Shown: piece by piece, positions 3,096 through 9,789 of the stretch
Layout of the letters: each line of letters begins with the position of its first letter
Position numbering within the stretch: position 1 is the stretch's first letter
Source of the DNA: Candidatus Didemnitutus sp.
GTDB taxonomy: Bacteria; Verrucomicrobiota; Verrucomicrobiia; Opitutales; Opitutaceae
Assembly (NCBI GenBank): GCA_023701285.1
Contig: JAMPXH010000031.1
Coordinates: forward strand, 1-38,396
Direction of reading: 5' to 3'
DNA: 38,396 bases
The notes under the pieces: generated by a model
What the model was told of the DNA's origin: nothing
The model's input: only the letters and a program-made list of their open reading frames with translations
Database searches by the model: none
Made by a program: the position numbers and the translations under genes

Positions 3096-4790
3096 TCAGA
3101 CGCGGAAGATCGCGCCGAGTTTCTTGCCGAGCAGGATCGTCATGCCCGCGATGGTGATGCCGAGGAAGACCATGGCCCAGACGCCGAGTGCGGAGGCGAT
3201 GAACTTGCCGTCGCCGAGGAGCTGGAAGAGTTCGTAGATGGCCTTCGTGATCGGGTAATAAAGCTGCTTCTGCGCGAGGATGAGCGAGTCGGACACCTCG
3301 AGCATCGCGAAGGAGAAGGCCAGCAGGCCGCCCGCGATGAGATTGGCGAGGATGAGAGGCAGCGTGATCTTGAAGAGCGATTTCAGCGGCGGGCAGCCGA
3401 GGTTCTGCGCGGCCTCCTCGAGCGTCTCGCTCGTCTGCTGGAAGCCCGCGGCGGCCGAGCGCACCACGTAGGGCAGGCGGCGGATGGAGTAGGCGATGAT
3501 CAGCAGGATGGTCGGGTCGGCGACGGGGTTGATGAAGGAGAAGAATTTCCCCTCCTGGCTCATCGCGAGGTAGCCGAAGGCCAGCACGAGGCCGGGCACG
3601 GCGAGCGGCATCATCGAGAGGAAGTCGAGGATCTGGCGGCCGCGGATCTTCGAGCGCACGATGACGTAGGCGAGCGCGATGCCTAGGATGAGGTCGATGA
3701 TCGTGGAGATGCTCGCGTATTTGAGGCTGTTGGCGATCGCGGGGACGGTCAGCTCGTGGCCGAGCGCGAGCTCGAAGTTGTCGAGGGTGAAGTTCTGCGG
3801 CAGGACGGTGGCATACCAGTCGTTGGAGAATGCCACGGCGACGACGCCGAGGTGCGGCAGGATGGCGAGGAAGGTGACGCCACCGAAGAGCGCGGTGCAG
3901 AGCCAGGAGCGGCCGGCGCCGAGCGAGCGCGCGCCGCCGGCGTGCGTGGCCTTGGCCATCATGGCGTAGGACTGGCGGCCGAACAGGCCTTTGCCGATGG
4001 CGTAGAACATCACGGAGCTGGCCAGCATCACGGCCACGAGCGCGTAGGGGAACGGGTTGCCGCCGATGTCCTTCAGGCCGTAGAAAATCTGCACCGACGT
4101 GACGCGCGCGTAGTCGAAGATGAGCGGCACGCCGAGGTCGGTGAACGACCAGATGAAGACGATGGTGCCGCCGGCGAAGAGGCCGGACTTGATGAGCGGC
4201 AGGGTGATCTTGAAGAATTTACGGAAGCCCGTGCAGCCGAGGTTCTCCGCCGCTTCCTCCATGGCCGGGTCGATGTTGGCGAGCGCCGCCACGGCGTTGA
4301 GGTAGATGATGGGGTAGAGGCTGAGCGCGGTGACGAGGGAGATGCCGAGAAACTGGTTGGCGCCGAGCCAGTCGAAGGTCCAACCCTCGGGCTTCAGCCC
4401 GAGCGAGATGATGAAGCTGTTCAGCGCGCCGTATTGCCCGAGGATCTGCTTGATGCCGATCGCGCCGACGAACGGCGGCAGGATCATCGGCACGAGGATG
4501 AGCGAGCCGAGGAGGTTCTTCAGCGGGAAGACGAACCGATCCGCGATGAATGCCAGCGGCAACGCGATCAGCAGCGCCAGGCTTGTCGTCGTCACGGCCA
4601 GCAGGAACGAGTTGCCCAGACCGCCGAGGTAGATCGGATCGCTCAGCAAGGCCCCGAGGTAGGCGAAGGTCAGGTTGCCGTCCGCGTCGACGAACCCGCC
4701 CTTCAGGATCTGGAAAATCGGCCAGGCGAAGAAGAGCGCGAAGAAGACGAGCGTGAGAGCAAAGACGATCCGGGCGAAGCCTTTGGACAT
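3096..4790 (-). CDS. Fused double-domain ABC permease, iron(III)/FbpB type
   Basis: This 564-residue inner-membrane protein contains two tandem MetI-like (BPD_transp_1) permease domains, the FbpB/AfuB arrangement used for ferric iron and related cargo. Both ATPase-contacting EAA loops are visible: EEAAENLGCTGFRKFFKITL in the first half and EEAAQNLGCPPLKSLFKITL in the second, each followed by a Pro-Leu-Ile segment. About twelve hydrophobic helices are present. The start is the ATG at 4790 (MSKGFARIVFAL), directly before the first helix; an in-frame ATG at 4853 would add a non-hydrophobic tail. No binding protein or ATPase of this system lies beside it, so it is an orphan here and must work with components encoded elsewhere. 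It is divergent from the metal-uptake operon starting near 4929. Iron as cargo is inferred from family architecture; phosphonate or sugar-phosphate relatives exist. Confidence 0.82.
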   Translation of the reverse strand: MSKGFARIVFALTLVFFALFFAWPIFQILKGGFVDADGNLTFAYLGALLSDPIYLGGLGNSFLLAVTTTSLALLIALPLAFIADRFVFPLKNLLGSLILVPMILPPFVGAIGIKQILGQYGALNSFIISLGLKPEGWTFDWLGANQFLGISLVTALSLYPIIYLNAVAALANIDPAMEEAAENLGCTGFRKFFKITLPLIKSGLFAGGTIVFIWSFTDLGVPLIFDYARVTSVQIFYGLKDIGGNPFPYALVAVMLASSVMFYAIGKGLFGRQSYAMMAKATHAGGARSLGAGRSWLCTALFGGVTFLAILPHLGVVAVAFSNDWYATVLPQNFTLDNFELALGHELTVPAIANSLKYASISTIIDLILGIALAYVIVRSKIRGRQILDFLSMMPLAVPGLVLAFGYLAMSQEGKFFSFINPVADPTILLIIAYSIRRLPYVVRSAAAGFQQTSETLEEAAQNLGCPPLKSLFKITLPLILANLIAGGLLAFSFAMLEVSDSLILAQKQLYYPITKAIYELFQLLGDGKFIASALGVWAMVFLGITIAGMTILLGKKLGAIFRV

Positions 4791-4867: not shown

Positions 4868-4889
4868 AAAATTAGGAATGACTAAGTTT
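4868..4889. promoter_or_regulatory. Candidate DtxR/MntR-type metal box
   Basis: A 22-base imperfect palindrome has arms AAAATTAG and CTAAGTTT separated by six bases; seven of the eight arm positions pair. It sits in a conspicuously AT-rich island (about 4868-4900) inside GC-rich DNA, between divergent genes for a fused ferric-type permease and a TroA-type metal-uptake operon. The TTAG...CTAA core resembles boxes bound by DtxR/MntR-family repressors. Its position suggests control of one or both transcription units. The protein that binds it is not identified; the operon itself encodes a DtxR-like domain fused to a permease. Confidence 0.5.
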
Positions 4890-4928
4890 GTTATTGAAAA
4901 CGTCGCGGGGCTGCCTCTCCGTGCAGGC

Positions 4929-5828
4929 ATGTCCCGGCTGCTCGTTTGCGTTCTCTTGCTCGCCACCGTCGGTCTTCCGGCGGCGACCGCGCGGCTGCGC
5001 GTTGTCACGACCACGTCCATCGTCACCGATCTCGTGCGGCAGGTCGCGGGCGATTTCGCCCAGGTCGAGGGCCTGATGGGGCCGGGCGTCGATCCGCATC
5101 TCTACAAGCCGACGGCGGCGGACATCGTCCGCCTGCAGCGCGCCGAAGTCATCTTCTACAATGGGCTGATGCTGGAAGGTCGCATGACGGACGTGTTCAC
5201 CAAGCTCGCGCGGTCGAAGCGGCACGTCTATGCGGTCACCGAATCGATCCCGGAGGACGAACTGCTCCAGCCGGCGGCGTTCGAGGGACACTTCGATCCG
5301 CACGTCTGGTTCGATGTGCAACTCTGGGCGAAATGCGTGGACACCGTCGTGGCGGGCCTTGCCGCAGCCGACTCCGCGAACGCCGACGCCTACCGGCGCC
5401 AGGGCGAGGCGGTCCGAGCGCGGTTGGCGGCGCTGCATGCCTGGGCCCGGGCGAAGGCGGACGAGTTGCCCGCCGAGCGGCGCGTGCTGGTGACGAGCCA
5501 TGACGCCTACAATTACTTCGGCCGCGCCTACGGGTTCACGGTGGTCGGCTTGCAGGGGATCTCGACTGCGACGGAGGCGGGCCTGGCCGATGTGGCGCGC
5601 CTGAGCGATTTCATCCGCACGCGCGGCGTGAAGGCGGTGTTCGTCGAGAGCAGCGTGTCGCCGGCCACGATCGAACGGGTGGCGCGCGACTCAGGGGCGC
5701 GCGTGGGTGGGGAGCTGTTTTCCGACGCCATGGGCGAGCCGGGGCAGATCGAGGGCGGATACAACCTTGGCACTTACGAGGGCATGATTAAGCACAACCT
5801 GTCCACCATCGTGGACGCGTTGAAATGA
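4929..5828 (+). CDS. troA: TroA/ZnuA-type metal-binding protein of an ABC transporter
   Basis: This 299-residue periplasmic protein binds a divalent metal and delivers it to the permease encoded downstream. I chose the ATG at 4929 because it gives a proper signal peptide (MSRLLVCVLLLATVGLPAATA); the in-frame ATG at 4878 lies inside the palindromic operator. Four ligand positions are recognisable in this numbering: His57 (GVDPHLY), His125 (FDPHVWFD), His191 (TSHDAYNYFGRAYG) and Asp266 (LFSDAMG). His rather than Glu at the third position follows TroA/ZnuA more than the Mn-specific PsaA type. The acidic His-rich loop of many ZnuA proteins is absent, so zinc or manganese both remain possible. It is the first gene of an operon: the next gene starts two bases after its stop. 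Confidence 0.88.
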   Translation: MSRLLVCVLLLATVGLPAATARLRVVTTTSIVTDLVRQVAGDFAQVEGLMGPGVDPHLYKPTAADIVRLQRAEVIFYNGLMLEGRMTDVFTKLARSKRHVYAVTESIPEDELLQPAAFEGHFDPHVWFDVQLWAKCVDTVVAGLAAADSANADAYRRQGEAVRARLAALHAWARAKADELPAERRVLVTSHDAYNYFGRAYGFTVVGLQGISTATEAGLADVARLSDFIRTRGVKAVFVESSVSPATIERVARDSGARVGGELFSDAMGEPGQIEGGYNLGTYEGMIKHNLSTIVDALK

Positions 5829-5829
5829 C

Positions 5830-6603
5830 ATGAAAACGGCACTTCGTTCCGTCGCGCTCTTCGCCGCCACCGCTCTGTCCGTGGTCGCGCAATACACCGA
5901 AACCCCGGTCACGATCGCCCCGGGCGCGTGGCTGCTCGAGACCGATGTCGTCAACGTCGCCTATGACCGGCACACGCCGTGGCGCGACGGCGTGCATTAC
6001 CGCTCCACTTATCTGGGCTACGTGCAACTGACGACCGGCGTCCTGCCGAATCTCGATGTGCAACTCGGCCTCGACTCCTGGCGCGAGGAGCGGGCGAGCG
6101 ACGGCGTGACGACGACACGCGCGCGCGGCATGGGCGAGCTTTACCTGCGCGCCAAGTGGCAGGTCTGGCAAAAGGACGAGGCGGGCGTGGCGTTGCTGCC
6201 GTATGTCGCCTTACGCGGCACGGCGCACGAGAGCCTGCGACCGGCGCGCACGCAGTTCGGCGTCGTCGTGCCGTGGGCGGCGCCGCTGGGCGAGACGTGG
6301 TGGTCGGGCGGGCAGATGCAGGTCGACTGGCTCGACGATGGCGCCGGCGGCCGCGAGGAGTGGCTCACCGCCACCGTGGTGGCGGGACGGGCGCTGACGG
6401 AAAAGTTCGGCTGCTATTTCGAGGCGATGACGTATGCCGCACCGGATCTGGAGCGGCGCTGGGCGACGCTGCTCGGCGGCGGTGTCACGTGGCAGGTGAG
6501 CGAGCGGTTTTACTGGGATCTCGGCTGCATGTTCGGTTGCTCGCGCATCGCCCCGGACATCAGCCCGGTGCTCCGGTTCGGTTGGTCCCTGCCGCCGCGA
6601 TGA
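5830..6603 (+). CDS. Outer-membrane beta-barrel protein, MetA-pathway/phenol-degradation-like family
   Basis: This 257-residue protein has a signal peptide (about residues 1-20, ending SVVAQ). The rest is built of alternating polar/hydrophobic strands rich in Trp, Tyr and Gly (GAWLLETD, YVQLTTGVLPNLDVQLGL, WATLLGGGVTWQVSERFYWDLG), the pattern of an outer-membrane barrel. It resembles the putative-transporter family named for the meta-pathway of phenol degradation. It lies inside the metal ABC operon, two bases after the binding-protein gene, and its stop overlaps the ATPase start at 6600. Co-translation with a metal importer suggests it helps metal cross or be sensed at the outer membrane. 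That role is inference; no cargo motif is visible, and the C-terminus ends in Pro-Pro-Arg instead of the usual terminal aromatic residue. Confidence 0.65.
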   Translation: MKTALRSVALFAATALSVVAQYTETPVTIAPGAWLLETDVVNVAYDRHTPWRDGVHYRSTYLGYVQLTTGVLPNLDVQLGLDSWREERASDGVTTTRARGMGELYLRAKWQVWQKDEAGVALLPYVALRGTAHESLRPARTQFGVVVPWAAPLGETWWSGGQMQVDWLDDGAGGREEWLTATVVAGRALTEKFGCYFEAMTYAAPDLERRWATLLGGGVTWQVSERFYWDLGCMFGCSRIAPDISPVLRFGWSLPPR

Positions 6604-7385
6604 ATGCTTCCGTCCTTCCGCTGGAGATCCACGATCTCACGGTCGCCTATCACAAGAAGCCGGTGCTGTGGGGTGTCGACGTTGCCGTGCCGGCCGGCCA
6701 ACTGGTTGGCATCGTGGGTCCGAACGGCGCGGGCAAATCCACGTTGATCAAGGCCTGCATGGGGCTGCTGCCTGTTGCGAGCGGGTGGGTGAAATTTTTC
6801 GGCCAGCCGCTGCGCGCAGCCGGCACGCGGGTCGGCTACGTGCCGCAGCGCGAGTCGGTGGACTGGGATTTTCCGGTCAACGTGATGGATGTGGTGCTCA
6901 TGGGGTGCTACGGCCGACTCGGTCTGTTGCGCCGGCCCGGCGCCGCTGAGCGGGCGAAGGCGCGGGCCTGCCTCGATCAGGTCGGCATGCTGCCGTTTGC
7001 CGACCGGCAGATCGCCAACCTCTCGGGCGGCCAGCAACAGCGCGTGTTCCTCGCCCGCGCGCTGGCGCAGGAGGCGGAGCTCTATTTCATGGACGAACCC
7101 TTCGCGGGCGTGGATGCCGCGACAGAGGCGGCCATCATCGCGGTGCTGCGCTCGTTGCGCGATCGCGGCTGCACGCTGCTGGTGGTGCACCACGACCTGC
7201 CGACCGCGCGGAGCTATTTCGACAGTCTGCTGCTGTTGAACATGAATGTCGTGGCCTTCGGGCCGACGGAGAAGGTGTTCACGCCCGAGCTGCTCCAGCG
7301 CACCTACGGCGGCCGGCTGACCATCCTCTCCGAGGTGGCGCATGCGGTCGGCGTCGCCGAGCGTTCGGAGAAGAGCGGATCATGA
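6600..7385 (+). CDS. troB: Metal ABC transporter ATPase (TroB/MntB/ZnuC family)
   Basis: This 261-residue cytoplasmic ATPase powers metal uptake. Walker A is GPNGAGKST (residues 40-48), the signature is LSGGQQQR (141-148), Walker B is LYFMDEP (161-167), and the switch His lies in VVHHDL. VGYVPQRESVDWDFPVNVMDVVLMG is the Q-loop region characteristic of Mn/Zn/Fe-chelate ATPases. The ATG at 6600 overlaps the stop of the barrel gene, and the stop overlaps the following permease start at 7382 as ATGA, so the genes are translationally coupled. The C-terminal extension after about residue 230 (QRTYGGRLTILSEVAHAVG) is usual for the family. Confidence 0.93.
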   Translation: MNASVLPLEIHDLTVAYHKKPVLWGVDVAVPAGQLVGIVGPNGAGKSTLIKACMGLLPVASGWVKFFGQPLRAAGTRVGYVPQRESVDWDFPVNVMDVVLMGCYGRLGLLRRPGAAERAKARACLDQVGMLPFADRQIANLSGGQQQRVFLARALAQEAELYFMDEPFAGVDAATEAAIIAVLRSLRDRGCTLLVVHHDLPTARSYFDSLLLLNMNVVAFGPTEKVFTPELLQRTYGGRLTILSEVAHAVGVAERSEKSGS

Positions 7386-8815
7386 ACGCGTGGCGCAGGC
7401 TGGCGGTCCTCGGGCTCGCGCTCGGGTGCGTGGCGGTGGCGCACGCGGCGCGCGTGGGCGACGTCGCCGCGACGGACTTGGGCGAACAGGTCGCGCGTTT
7501 CCTGAGCCTGCGCGATCCGGCGGTGCGCACCGCGGTGGCGGGCGCGGCGTTGCTCGGCGTGTGTTGCGGCGTGCTCGGCGGCTTCGTCGTCGTGCGCCGG
7601 ATGGCGTTGGTGGGCGATGCGCTGTCGCACGCGGTGCTGCCGGGCGTCGCGCTGGGTTTTCTTTGGAACCTGTCCAAGGATCCGCTGGCGATCTTCGTCG
7701 GCGCCACCGCGGCGGGCCTGCTGGGCACGGCGCTGGTGCGCGCAATCACGGCGACCACACGCCTGAAGGAGGACGCGGCACTGGGGCTCGTGCTGGCGTC
7801 GTTCTTCGCGGCCGGCGCCTGCCTCGTGACGATGATCCAGCGGCTGCCCACGGGCAACAAGAGCGGCATCGACAAGTTCCTCTTCGGCCAGGCGGCGGCG
7901 ATCAGCGGCGACGACCTCGTGCTCATGGGCGGGGTGGCCGTGCTCGTGCTCGGCTTGGTGGCGTGTTTCTACAAGGAACTTCTCGTCGTGAGTTTCGACG
8001 GGGCGTTCGCGCGGGCGAGCGGGCTGCCGGTGGCGTGGATCGACCGCGGGTTGATGCTGCTGCTCGCATTCTCCGTCGTGATCGCGCTGCAGGCGGTCGG
8101 TGCCGTGCTCGTGTCGGCCATGCTCATCACGCCGGCGGCGACCGCCTACCTGCTGACGGACCGTTTGCACCGGCTGCTGGCGTTGGCGGCGGTCTTCGGC
8201 GTCGTGGCGGGCGTGCTGGGGGCGTTTTTCTCCTTCCTCGGCCACAACCTGCCGACCGGGCCCTTCATCGTGCTGGCGTCGAGCGCGCTCTTCACGGGGG
8301 CGTTTTTCCTCGCGCCGCGGCACGGCGTGCTGGTGCGGTGGTGGCGGCGGCGCGACCGCACGGCGCGCACCCGGCGCGAGAACACGCTCAAGTCCATCTA
8401 CCGCGTGTGGGAGGAACGGGATTTCGCCGGCGAGGGCGTGACCTTCGCCGCCCTGGCCGAACGGCGCGGCGAGACGCTGGGCGAGGCGCAGGCGCAGGGG
8501 CGCGCGCTGGCCGGGCACGGCCTGGCGACGATCAGCGGCGACGTGGTGCATTTCACGCCCGAGGGCCGGCGGCGCGCGGCGGAGATCGTGCGCAATCACC
8601 GGCTCTGGGAACTCTATCTCACCGACTCGGCCAACATCGCGCCCGACCACGTGCACGAGGACGCGGAGAAGATCGAGCACGTGCTTGGTGAGGACGTCGT
8701 GCGCGAACTCGAGCGGCGTTTCCGTCACGCCGAGCGTGATCCGCACGGCCGCCGCATTCCGCGGGCGAGCGAGATCCATGGCGACAGTCCGTCGCCGGGA
8801 GGAAACGCCGGATGA
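7382..8815 (+). CDS. troC: Metal ABC permease fused to a C-terminal DtxR/MntR-like domain
   Basis: This 477-residue protein joins a TroC/ZnuB-family (ABC-3) permease, about residues 45-315, to a cytoplasmic tail of about 150 residues that resembles a DtxR-family metalloregulator. An extra N-terminal hydrophobic segment resembles a signal peptide. The permease part shows VRRMALVGDALSHAVLPGVA and LQAVGAVLVSAMLITPAAT. The tail has a winged-helix-like part (about 334-400) and the dimerisation/metal block NHRLWELYL plus VHEDAEKIEH. His406, Glu429, Glu432 and His433 line up by eye with MntR His77, Glu99, Glu102 and His103. The positions matching MntR Asp8 and Glu11 are Asn334 and Lys337, so the first helix lacks two ligands. 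The tail might sense cytoplasmic metal and gate transport, or bind DNA at the membrane; both are inference. Confidence 0.85.
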   Translation: MNAWRRLAVLGLALGCVAVAHAARVGDVAATDLGEQVARFLSLRDPAVRTAVAGAALLGVCCGVLGGFVVVRRMALVGDALSHAVLPGVALGFLWNLSKDPLAIFVGATAAGLLGTALVRAITATTRLKEDAALGLVLASFFAAGACLVTMIQRLPTGNKSGIDKFLFGQAAAISGDDLVLMGGVAVLVLGLVACFYKELLVVSFDGAFARASGLPVAWIDRGLMLLLAFSVVIALQAVGAVLVSAMLITPAATAYLLTDRLHRLLALAAVFGVVAGVLGAFFSFLGHNLPTGPFIVLASSALFTGAFFLAPRHGVLVRWWRRRDRTARTRRENTLKSIYRVWEERDFAGEGVTFAALAERRGETLGEAQAQGRALAGHGLATISGDVVHFTPEGRRRAAEIVRNHRLWELYLTDSANIAPDHVHEDAEKIEHVLGEDVVRELERRFRHAERDPHGRRIPRASEIHGDSPSPGGNAG

Positions 8816-9789
8816 GCGAGCTGATCCCCGCTTTCGACTGGCAGCGCGTGATGGTGGAACCCTGGACGGAGGGGCTCGGCACCTTCGGCTGGATCATGCT
8901 GATGGGCTTTCTGGCCACGGCGGCCTGCGGGCTGGTGGGCAATTACCTGCTGTTGCGCCGGCTCGCGCTGATGGGCGACGCGGTGAGCCACAGTGTGCTG
9001 CCGGGACTCGTGATCGCGTTCCTGCTCACCGGCAGCCGCGGCACGGGCCCGATGTTCCTCGGCGCGTTGATCGCGGGCGTCAGCGCGACGGTGTTGATCG
9101 AACTCATCCACACGCGCTCCCGCATCAAGCAGGACGCGGCCATGGGTGTGGCGTTCACCACGCTCTTCGCCGCGGGCGTGGTGCTCACGGCGCTTTATGC
9201 GGACACGATCGACCTCGACGTGGAGTGCGTGCTCTTCGGCGAGATTGCCTACGTGCCCTTCGACGAGATCGTGACGGCGGGCGGGCTCGTGCTCGGGCCG
9301 CTCTCGGTCGTGCGGATGGGCGCGGTGTTGCTGGCGGTCGTGGTTCTCATTGTCGCGTTCTACAAAGAACTCCTCGTGGCGAGCTTCGATGCCGGGCTGG
9401 CGCGCAATCTCGGCGTGAATCCCACCGCGGCGCACTTCGGGCTCATGGCGGTGCTTTCCGTGGTGGTGGTGAGTGCGTTCGAGGCGGTGGGCGCGATCCT
9501 CGTCATCGCGATGCTCATCCTGCCCGGGGCGACGGCGTCGCTGCTCGCGCACCGGCTGTCGCGCGTGCATCTGCTCACGGTGGCGCACGCGGCGCTGAGC
9601 GCGGTCGCGGGCGTGCACCTCGGCGTGTGGCTCGATTGCTCGATCGGTGCGGCGATGGTCGTCGCCGGCACGGGCTGGTTCGTGCTGGCGTGGGTCTTTG
9701 CCCCGCGCGACGGCTTGCTGGCGCAGGCCTGGCGCCGCGCCGGCGGCGCGGCCCGCTCAGAACAGCCGCGCGAACAGATCGCGGAATAG
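8812..9789 (+). CDS. troD: Metal ABC transporter permease, second subunit
   Basis: This 325-residue ABC-3 family permease is the paired partner of the fused permease before it. It contains eight or nine hydrophobic helices, the family block LLRRLALMGDAVSHSVLPGLV near residues 46-66, and FEAVGAILVIAMLILPGATASLLAHRLSR near residues 224-252. Unlike its partner it has no regulatory tail and ends soon after the last helix. The ATG at 8812 overlaps the previous stop by four bases. Its last 33 bases overlap, on the opposite strand, the 3' end of the purine permease gene (stop at 9757), so the two convergent transcripts share their ends. This is the last gene of the metal-uptake operon. Confidence 0.92.
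   Translation: MSELIPAFDWQRVMVEPWTEGLGTFGWIMLMGFLATAACGLVGNYLLLRRLALMGDAVSHSVLPGLVIAFLLTGSRGTGPMFLGALIAGVSATVLIELIHTRSRIKQDAAMGVAFTTLFAAGVVLTALYADTIDLDVECVLFGEIAYVPFDEIVTAGGLVLGPLSVVRMGAVLLAVVVLIVAFYKELLVASFDAGLARNLGVNPTAAHFGLMAVLSVVVVSAFEAVGAILVIAMLILPGATASLLAHRLSRVHLLTVAHAALSAVAGVHLGVWLDCSIGAAMVVAGTGWFVLAWVFAPRDGLLAQAWRRAGGAARSEQPREQIAE

Follow-up and report, generated by a model that had tools for sequence, protein, structure and literature searches.

The stretch of DNA analysed here, referred to as the window, comprises 38,396 nucleotides of Candidatus Didemnitutus sp. (contig JAMPXH010000031.1 of assembly GCA_023701285.1) and is part of a draft genome of 4.02 Mb denoted G000. At 4878-9789 it encodes an operon for a predicted ATP-binding cassette (ABC) metal importer in the order substrate-binding protein (SBP), Phenol_MetA_deg-type protein, ATPase, PermC and PermD (Table 1). 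PermC, the first of the two permeases, is extended by a cytoplasmic tail with the fold of DtxR-type regulators. Comparison with related sequences suggests this tail having retained the metal-binding/dimerisation domain, whereas the ability to read DNA was likely lost.

Fusion of a metal permease to a DtxR-fold tail

The presence of a DtxR-fold tail on an ABC permease, as proposed by an earlier sequence-only reading of the window, is borne out by Pfam profiles and by sequence and fold matches in the PDB. The permease domain PF00950 is recognised with an E-value of 3.7e-67 (227 bits, cut-off 20.1) and the domain Fe_dep_repr_C (PF02742) in the tail with an E-value of 2.7e-23 (82.2 bits, cut-off 27). 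Scanning the fusion protein against Pfam gave no match to the DNA-binding domain PF01325, even at an E-value of 1, and no FeoA domain. The sequence of the tail alone matches PDB chains of DtxR/IdeR/MntR type, the best being 5zr4 (E 5.5e-16) and DtxR reaching E 6.8e-14. Its predicted fold (predicted local distance difference test score, pLDDT, 86.9) superimposes with Z-scores of about 18-19 on DR2539, DtxR and IdeR and of about 13.5 on B. subtilis MntR. Because of these sequence matches and the higher Z-scores we assign the modelled tail to the neighbourhood of the DtxR/IdeR branch, B. subtilis MntR being more distant. The full-length model of PermC (mean pLDDT 77.0, predicted TM-score 0.65) has PsaBC of S. 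pneumoniae as its best match (Foldseek E 2.2e-15) and shows the helix of residues 316-345 linking the membrane end with the first tail helix, its confidence being too low for trusting the placement of the tail relative to the membrane domain.

Table 1. Features of the importer operon and its upstream region, in window coordinates
Feature	Position	Strand	Evidence or remark
Palindromic operator AAATTAGGAATGACTAAGTT, MntR-box-like	4869-4888	none	overlaps the first ATG of the SBP open reading frame
Substrate-binding protein, ZnuA/TroA class	4878-5828	+	PF01297, E 8e-81
Phenol_MetA_deg-type (outer-membrane channel-like) protein	5830-6603	+	PF13557, E 7.3e-8
ABC ATPase	6600-7385	+	PF00005, E 2.8e-28
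PermC, permease with DtxR-fold tail, 477 amino acids	7382-8815	+	PF00950 and PF02742; full-length model matches PsaBC and DR2539/DtxR (PDB)
ABC-3 permease domain of PermC, residues 47-309	7520-8308	+	PF00950
Unbroken helix of PermC, residues 316-345	8327-8416	+	predicted, AlphaFold2 secondary structure
Position of the DtxR recognition helix in the tail, residues 365-374, not DtxR-like	8474-8503	+	
Metal-binding/dimerisation domain, residues 392-461; ligand positions H406, E410, H425, E429, E432, H433	8555-8764	+	PF02742
PermD, second ABC-3 permease, tailless	8812-9789	+	PF00950, E 2.1e-50, without PF02742

For the SBP, translation more likely starts at the ATG at 4929, as judged from the signal-peptide-like sequence that follows and from the overlap of the first ATG with the operator. 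The NCBIfam models nearest to the ATPase are those of manganese/iron importers, every one scoring under its cut-off.

The fusion is genuine and not an accident of assembly, since many relatives have it. A tailed permease (frames of at least 428 amino acids) is encoded by 17 of 57 genomes compared, that of the window included. All permease matches of at least 50% identity in these genomes (n=14) lie in frames of at least 487 amino acids, i.e. no loss of the tail was seen among them; for ABC-3 permeases that belong to other systems and have no tail, identity goes up to 41% (G034, frame of 340). At an E-value of 1e-10, a model of the tail matched in 112 of 387 genomes of the phylum, fused and free proteins taken together. 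The named scan yielded at least 458 confirmed stretches, and the best 80 of these, which were kept, carry titles of Verrucomicrobiota (one Kiritimatiellia) except for L078, which is titled Klebsiella pneumoniae and presumably is a mislabelled bin. In viral contigs no relative of the tail was found, none of the 51 pattern matches being confirmed. The plasmid search produced 69 records, each with less than 60% identity, and among the 30 matches listed 29 are annotated as regulator and one is unannotated. Among the matches listed from the collections searched, none was chlamydial.

Three architectures can be distinguished. In class A, which includes the window, only PermC is tailed and no regulator was seen in the neighbourhood; in class B, the gene for a free DtxR or MntR adjoins a locus with the tail on PermC only; in class C, both PermC and PermD are tailed. 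Class C is represented by 14 loci (L132-L145, e.g. L134:5704-8537), and for ten of these the sequence fetched also includes a free DtxR; the loci were selected for looking double-tailed, from which no frequency can be derived.

The residues named in the sequence-only reading, i.e. His406, Glu429, Glu432, His433, Asn334 and Lys337, are all present, and Glu410 and His425 occupy two further DtxR-type ligand positions. Among the 97 fused tails sharing the type of the window, chosen by the motif HVH at 423-425 and for this reason invariant in H425 by construction, H406, E410 and E432 are found in all, H433 in 96 and E429 in 93, with Asp in the remaining four. At position 425 of the class A tails (n=97), His is present in 88 and Asp in nine. 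The other tail types mostly have Asp at both 425 and 429 (18/20 non-HVH tails; 14/14 of the C1 tails of class C). The ligand set therefore differs between tail types, yet not freely. The two tails of class C have separate ligand sets, PermC carrying Asp at 425 and 429 and PermD carrying His and Glu, in 14/14 loci each.

The DNA-reading part of the tail

Fused and free proteins differ in their Pfam profiles (E 0.01). PF02742 was matched in 89/89 fused proteins (41/41 of the window's type, 28/28 from double-tailed loci and 20/20 remaining single-tailed ones), whereas PF01325 was matched in 0/89 (0/41, 0/28 and 0/20, respectively). Both domains were matched in 31/31 free DtxR/MntR regulators, a set picked by the metal domain alone, hence not selected for PF01325, and from which the free fragments in L046, L092 and L111 were excluded. 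Of the 80 loci kept from the named scan, the 40 with simple complete frames were included.

We aligned 96 class A tails and that of the window, 20 class B, 14 C1 and 14 C2 tails with free regulators from the neighbourhood of such loci (n=30) and with the MntR of the window's own genome. At the recognition-helix positions 364-372, mean pairwise identity is 0.24 in A, 0.20 in B, 0.30 in C1 and 0.17 in C2, whereas free DtxR and free MntR reach 0.65 and 0.44, respectively. For the metal domain the corresponding values are 0.62, 0.57, 0.56 and 0.47 versus 0.61 and 0.37. At a metal-domain identity of 0.6-0.7, the recognition helix reaches 0.21 in 1677 fused pairs versus 0.71 in 46 free DtxR pairs, and in the same band helix 2 (0.49 versus 0.40) and helix 1 (0.63 versus 0.50) are no less conserved in fused than in free pairs. 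The residues which we take to be the DNA contacts of DtxR, Ser37, Pro39, Thr40 and Gln43, correspond in PDB alignments to tail residues 365, 367, 368 and 371. Position 367 or 368 (P39/T40 of DtxR) is acidic in 81/97 HVH-type tails and in 0/31 free regulators. In three double-tailed loci (L135, L143, L144) the helix-turn-helix of the second tail, that of PermD, is partly deleted.

A turn of the form R362-x-[EW]-[TS] at residues 362-365 (window 8465-8476, R-G-E-T) occurs in most PermC tails and is absent from the free DtxR/MntR compared; through this surface the tail may contact the ATPase or lipid.

Asn334 and Lys337, put forward before as an altered first helix, were dropped as an indication that the DNA-binding helix is lost. 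Free regulators of DtxR type from related loci carry Asn (11) or Asp (6) at the first and Lys at the second position (17/17), rendering these residues uninformative and the recognition helix (residues 364-374) the informative change. In free MntR-type regulators the two positions are Asp and Glu (14/14).

Operator, free MntR and mntH

The palindrome AAATTAGGAATGACTAAGTT upstream of the operon is the only zero-mismatch site in the whole genome, and none is expected in the window by shuffling; the pattern was derived from the window before being tried on relatives, the window's own count thus not being independent. With up to two mismatches, the genome contains five sites of the operator pattern versus 12 of a reversed control pattern, and in most relatives the count of the control equals or exceeds that of the operator. 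Counts of the pattern with mismatches are hence uninformative, and only its position before operons or mntH carries weight. Upstream of class A operons of the window's HVH type, the operator is present within two mismatches in 37/64 stretches, with 0.58 expected by shuffling. It is found in 2/10 stretches of HVH-type loci with a neighbouring regulator, in 0/10 and 2/9 of the other single-tailed groups and in 0/13 of the double-tailed loci. For this comparison 116 upstream stretches were taken and 106 counted, leaving out the duplicates L052-L055 and the over-long stretches at contig ends (L034, L035, L071, L075, L109, L121).

Four fusion-free congeners (G001, G004, G007, G010) each have a single site at one mismatch, located directly before mntH, and in a fifth (G006) the only site, also at one mismatch, precedes a barrel gene followed by mntH. 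In the window, a two-domain BPD_transp_1 permease (3096-4790, minus strand), which by resemblance we take to be of the ferric-iron Fbp type, is encoded divergently from the operon, the promoter region being common to both. In G004 and G010 (in the latter as judged by eye) mntH is divergent from a similar permease, and both importers therefore occupy the same slot. In L188 (G029) and L198 (G005), around 1490-1540, a near-identical AT-rich repeat TTTAGTTCTTGCTTAATTAAGTT lies just before the gene of an ArsR-like regulator; within one mismatch of the operator pattern, it is probably another operator.

Free DtxR/MntR regulators are encoded by 16 of the 17 fusion-bearing genomes, that of the window included, those of DtxR type mostly as judged by frames of 220-261 amino acids. 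Close orthologues of MntR, with E-values of 1e-64 or better, were identified in G000-G004 (that of G002 being cut by a contig end), G006-G009 and G012; G010, at a completeness of 86%, gave none, and G005 and G011 gave only weaker matches. G029 and G032 have MntR without the fusion. Strong mntH, defined by an analyst-chosen E-value below 1e-100, was found in 1/17 genomes with the fusion versus 19/40 without, a comparison that, like the Fisher test on these sets, ignores kinship. Within the genus, five genomes have the fusion without strong mntH, seven have mntH without the fusion and one has neither. Counter to mutual exclusion, G019 (L038) has both, alone among the 17, and G003 and G016 combine the fusion with a weaker Nramp paralogue. 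As the operator stands before mntH in fusion-free congeners, its reader is probably the free MntR, the simplest reading of these sequences being that it recognises the site at 4869-4888 whichever importer gene follows. The fused importer would accordingly carry manganese.

The Phenol_MetA_deg-type gene is located between the SBP and ATPase genes in 30/112 related loci and adjoins mntH in the fusion-free congeners G001, G006 and G007 (e.g. L194:1565-2437; L195:1585-2448). Travelling with a manganese importer, this barrel-like protein is a candidate outer-membrane manganese channel.

Proposed feedback on transport and its alternatives

The reading we favour, with moderate confidence, is a manganese(-iron) importer transcribed under control of the free MntR, with a metal-sensing tail that exerts its effect on the transporter itself. 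The operon product would be an importer of the PsaABC/TroABCD type for manganese and possibly also for ferrous iron, and the separate MntR, encoded elsewhere in the genome, would act via the palindrome. The tail would serve as a cytoplasmic metal sensor with the metal/dimerisation domain kept and the DNA-reading surface lost. Upon sufficient cytosolic metal it may bind metal and change shape or dimerise, and this change might be transmitted via the helix of residues 316-345, resulting in a transporter slowed or locked in a manner similar to trans-inhibition. In double-tailed transporters the two tails of one complex could pair, and in the single-tailed form of the window pairing might occur between complexes or be replaced by a monomeric contact. 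We favour feedback on transport because a metal domain without a recognisable DNA face is fused by a helix to an importer and exists beside a separate repressor. The leaning of the sequence-only reading towards gating and away from classical DNA binding is supported by the presence of PF01325 in free and its absence from fused proteins; gating itself we infer.

PermC shares PF00950 with the manganese permeases PsaBC, TroCD and MntB, which are not known to have a cytoplasmic DtxR tail, and the PsaBC chains of the PDB match have 258-290 residues versus the 477 of PermC. With DtxR, IdeR, DR2539 and MntR the tail has in common the fold, PF02742 and the ligand positions; unlike these, it is fused to a permease and has no PF01325 match, no DtxR-like recognition helix and no FeoA domain. 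A comparison restricted to the mode of action is offered by MetNI and ModBC, ABC importers which are locked by cargo bound at an added cytoplasmic domain on the ATPase (PMC10710835). There, as proposed for PermC, a cytoplasmic domain senses the transported substrate; these sensors have other folds and are located on the ATPase, whereas the sensor of PermC is attached to the membrane subunit and has its origin in a family of repressors. No description of a permease-DtxR fusion as a gate was found in the open-access literature, most subscription journals being outside its coverage, and a 2023 review of transporter regulation does not mention DtxR in its main text.

The earlier statement that no mechanism is established for such fusions has to be corrected in view of YtgCR (CT069) of Chlamydia trachomatis, by published description a metal ABC permease extended at its C-terminus by a domain resembling DtxR. 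According to passages of the respective reports, the tail is released at about 28 kDa and acts as YtgR in the iron-dependent repression of ytgABCD and trpBA (PMC5599777, PMC6504234, PMC7755916, PMC10239878). In part of a review, permease-DtxR fusions are assigned to 11 bacterial phyla and the repressor mechanism is considered to be possibly general (PMC5599777). For Waddlia, ytgC is counted among the transcription factors and its abundance is given in passages that contain no YtgC target sites (PMC4989314). The operon of the window resembles ytgABCD in comprising SBP, ATPase, fused permease and second permease. Unlike YtgCR, it belongs to a genome with a free MntR, its tail is without DNA-binding profile and its operator also stands before mntH in relatives that lack the fusion.

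Release of the tail from the permease, yielding a soluble protein that represses its own operon in dependence on metal, would be in agreement with the architecture and gene order described in parts of the YtgCR reports (PMC5599777, PMC7755916) and with the zero-mismatch palindrome being found only before its own operon, as autoregulation predicts. We nevertheless regard it as unlikely: PF01325 is matched in none of the 89 fused proteins scanned, the recognition helix is poorly kept while the operator is conserved (37/64), the genome encodes a free MntR, and in congeners having no fusion the operator serves mntH, at one mismatch. We consider it similarly improbable that the tail is a non-regulatory cytoplasmic metal acceptor or chaperone taking over the ion at the channel exit. 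Retention of the ligands but not of the DNA-reading surface, direct fusion to the membrane subunit and the tailing of the second permease in some loci would fit such a role. However, the whole dimerisation domain is conserved and not the ligands alone (mean identity 0.62 in class A), and the DtxR-type fold is an allosteric switch. That an uncut tail reads DNA while anchored in the membrane was raised in the review for YtgC of full length, the analogy being a LacI anchored to the membrane (PMC5599777). For PermC it meets the objections to a released repressor and in addition the partial deletion of the helix-turn-helix in the second tails of three loci, making it the most remote of these explanations.

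Several observations weigh against the loss of DNA reading and the feedback on transport we favour. Binding to DNA is reported, in the passages cited above, for YtgR of Chlamydia, a tail which in general architecture is like that of PermC. A winged-helix fold is still predicted for the tail, and among the 41 fused proteins one matches MarR_2, a DNA-binding winged helix-turn-helix family (E 0.003), and one HVO_A0114 (E 0.002). The acidic residues at 367/368 are confined to the HVH type (5/20 other single tails, 0/14 C1, 1/14 C2), and the other tail types have a helix 3 that is basic on average, though equally unlike DtxR. Ahead of helix 3, HVH-type tails have a conserved turn (R362 in 93/97, E364 in 66/97, T365 in 66/97), whose contact partner might still be DNA. 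Only one of the window's two permeases is tailed, and a DtxR-like dimer would therefore need two transporters or the tail would have to act as a monomer. In each of G029, G032, G005 and G011 one operator-like site was inspected, none of them at mntH. Finally, the sequences compared are mostly from one phylum and are not independent.

As a summary, the kind of fusion is already known from YtgCR, the new aspects being that DNA reading was likely lost, that mntH has the operator in common with the fusion operon and that double-tailed forms exist. With more reservation than for the window itself, we tentatively suggest the DtxR-fold tails of manganese ABC permeases in Verrucomicrobiota being domesticated repressors that no longer read DNA and act solely as cytosolic metal sensors switching the importer off, double tails forming a metal-locked heterodimer and transcription being controlled by free DtxR/MntR. 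The evidence, drawn from sequence comparison, argues against extending a general repressor mechanism to the present group of fusions and renders it less likely here. For this large group the model of a cleaved transcription factor may be wrong, because the DNA-reading part is unconserved and the operator is probably recognised by another regulator. Gating by the tail, if it occurs, would be a novel means by which ABC importers of metals sense what they carry, and would clearly exemplify the conversion of a transcription factor to an allosteric domain.

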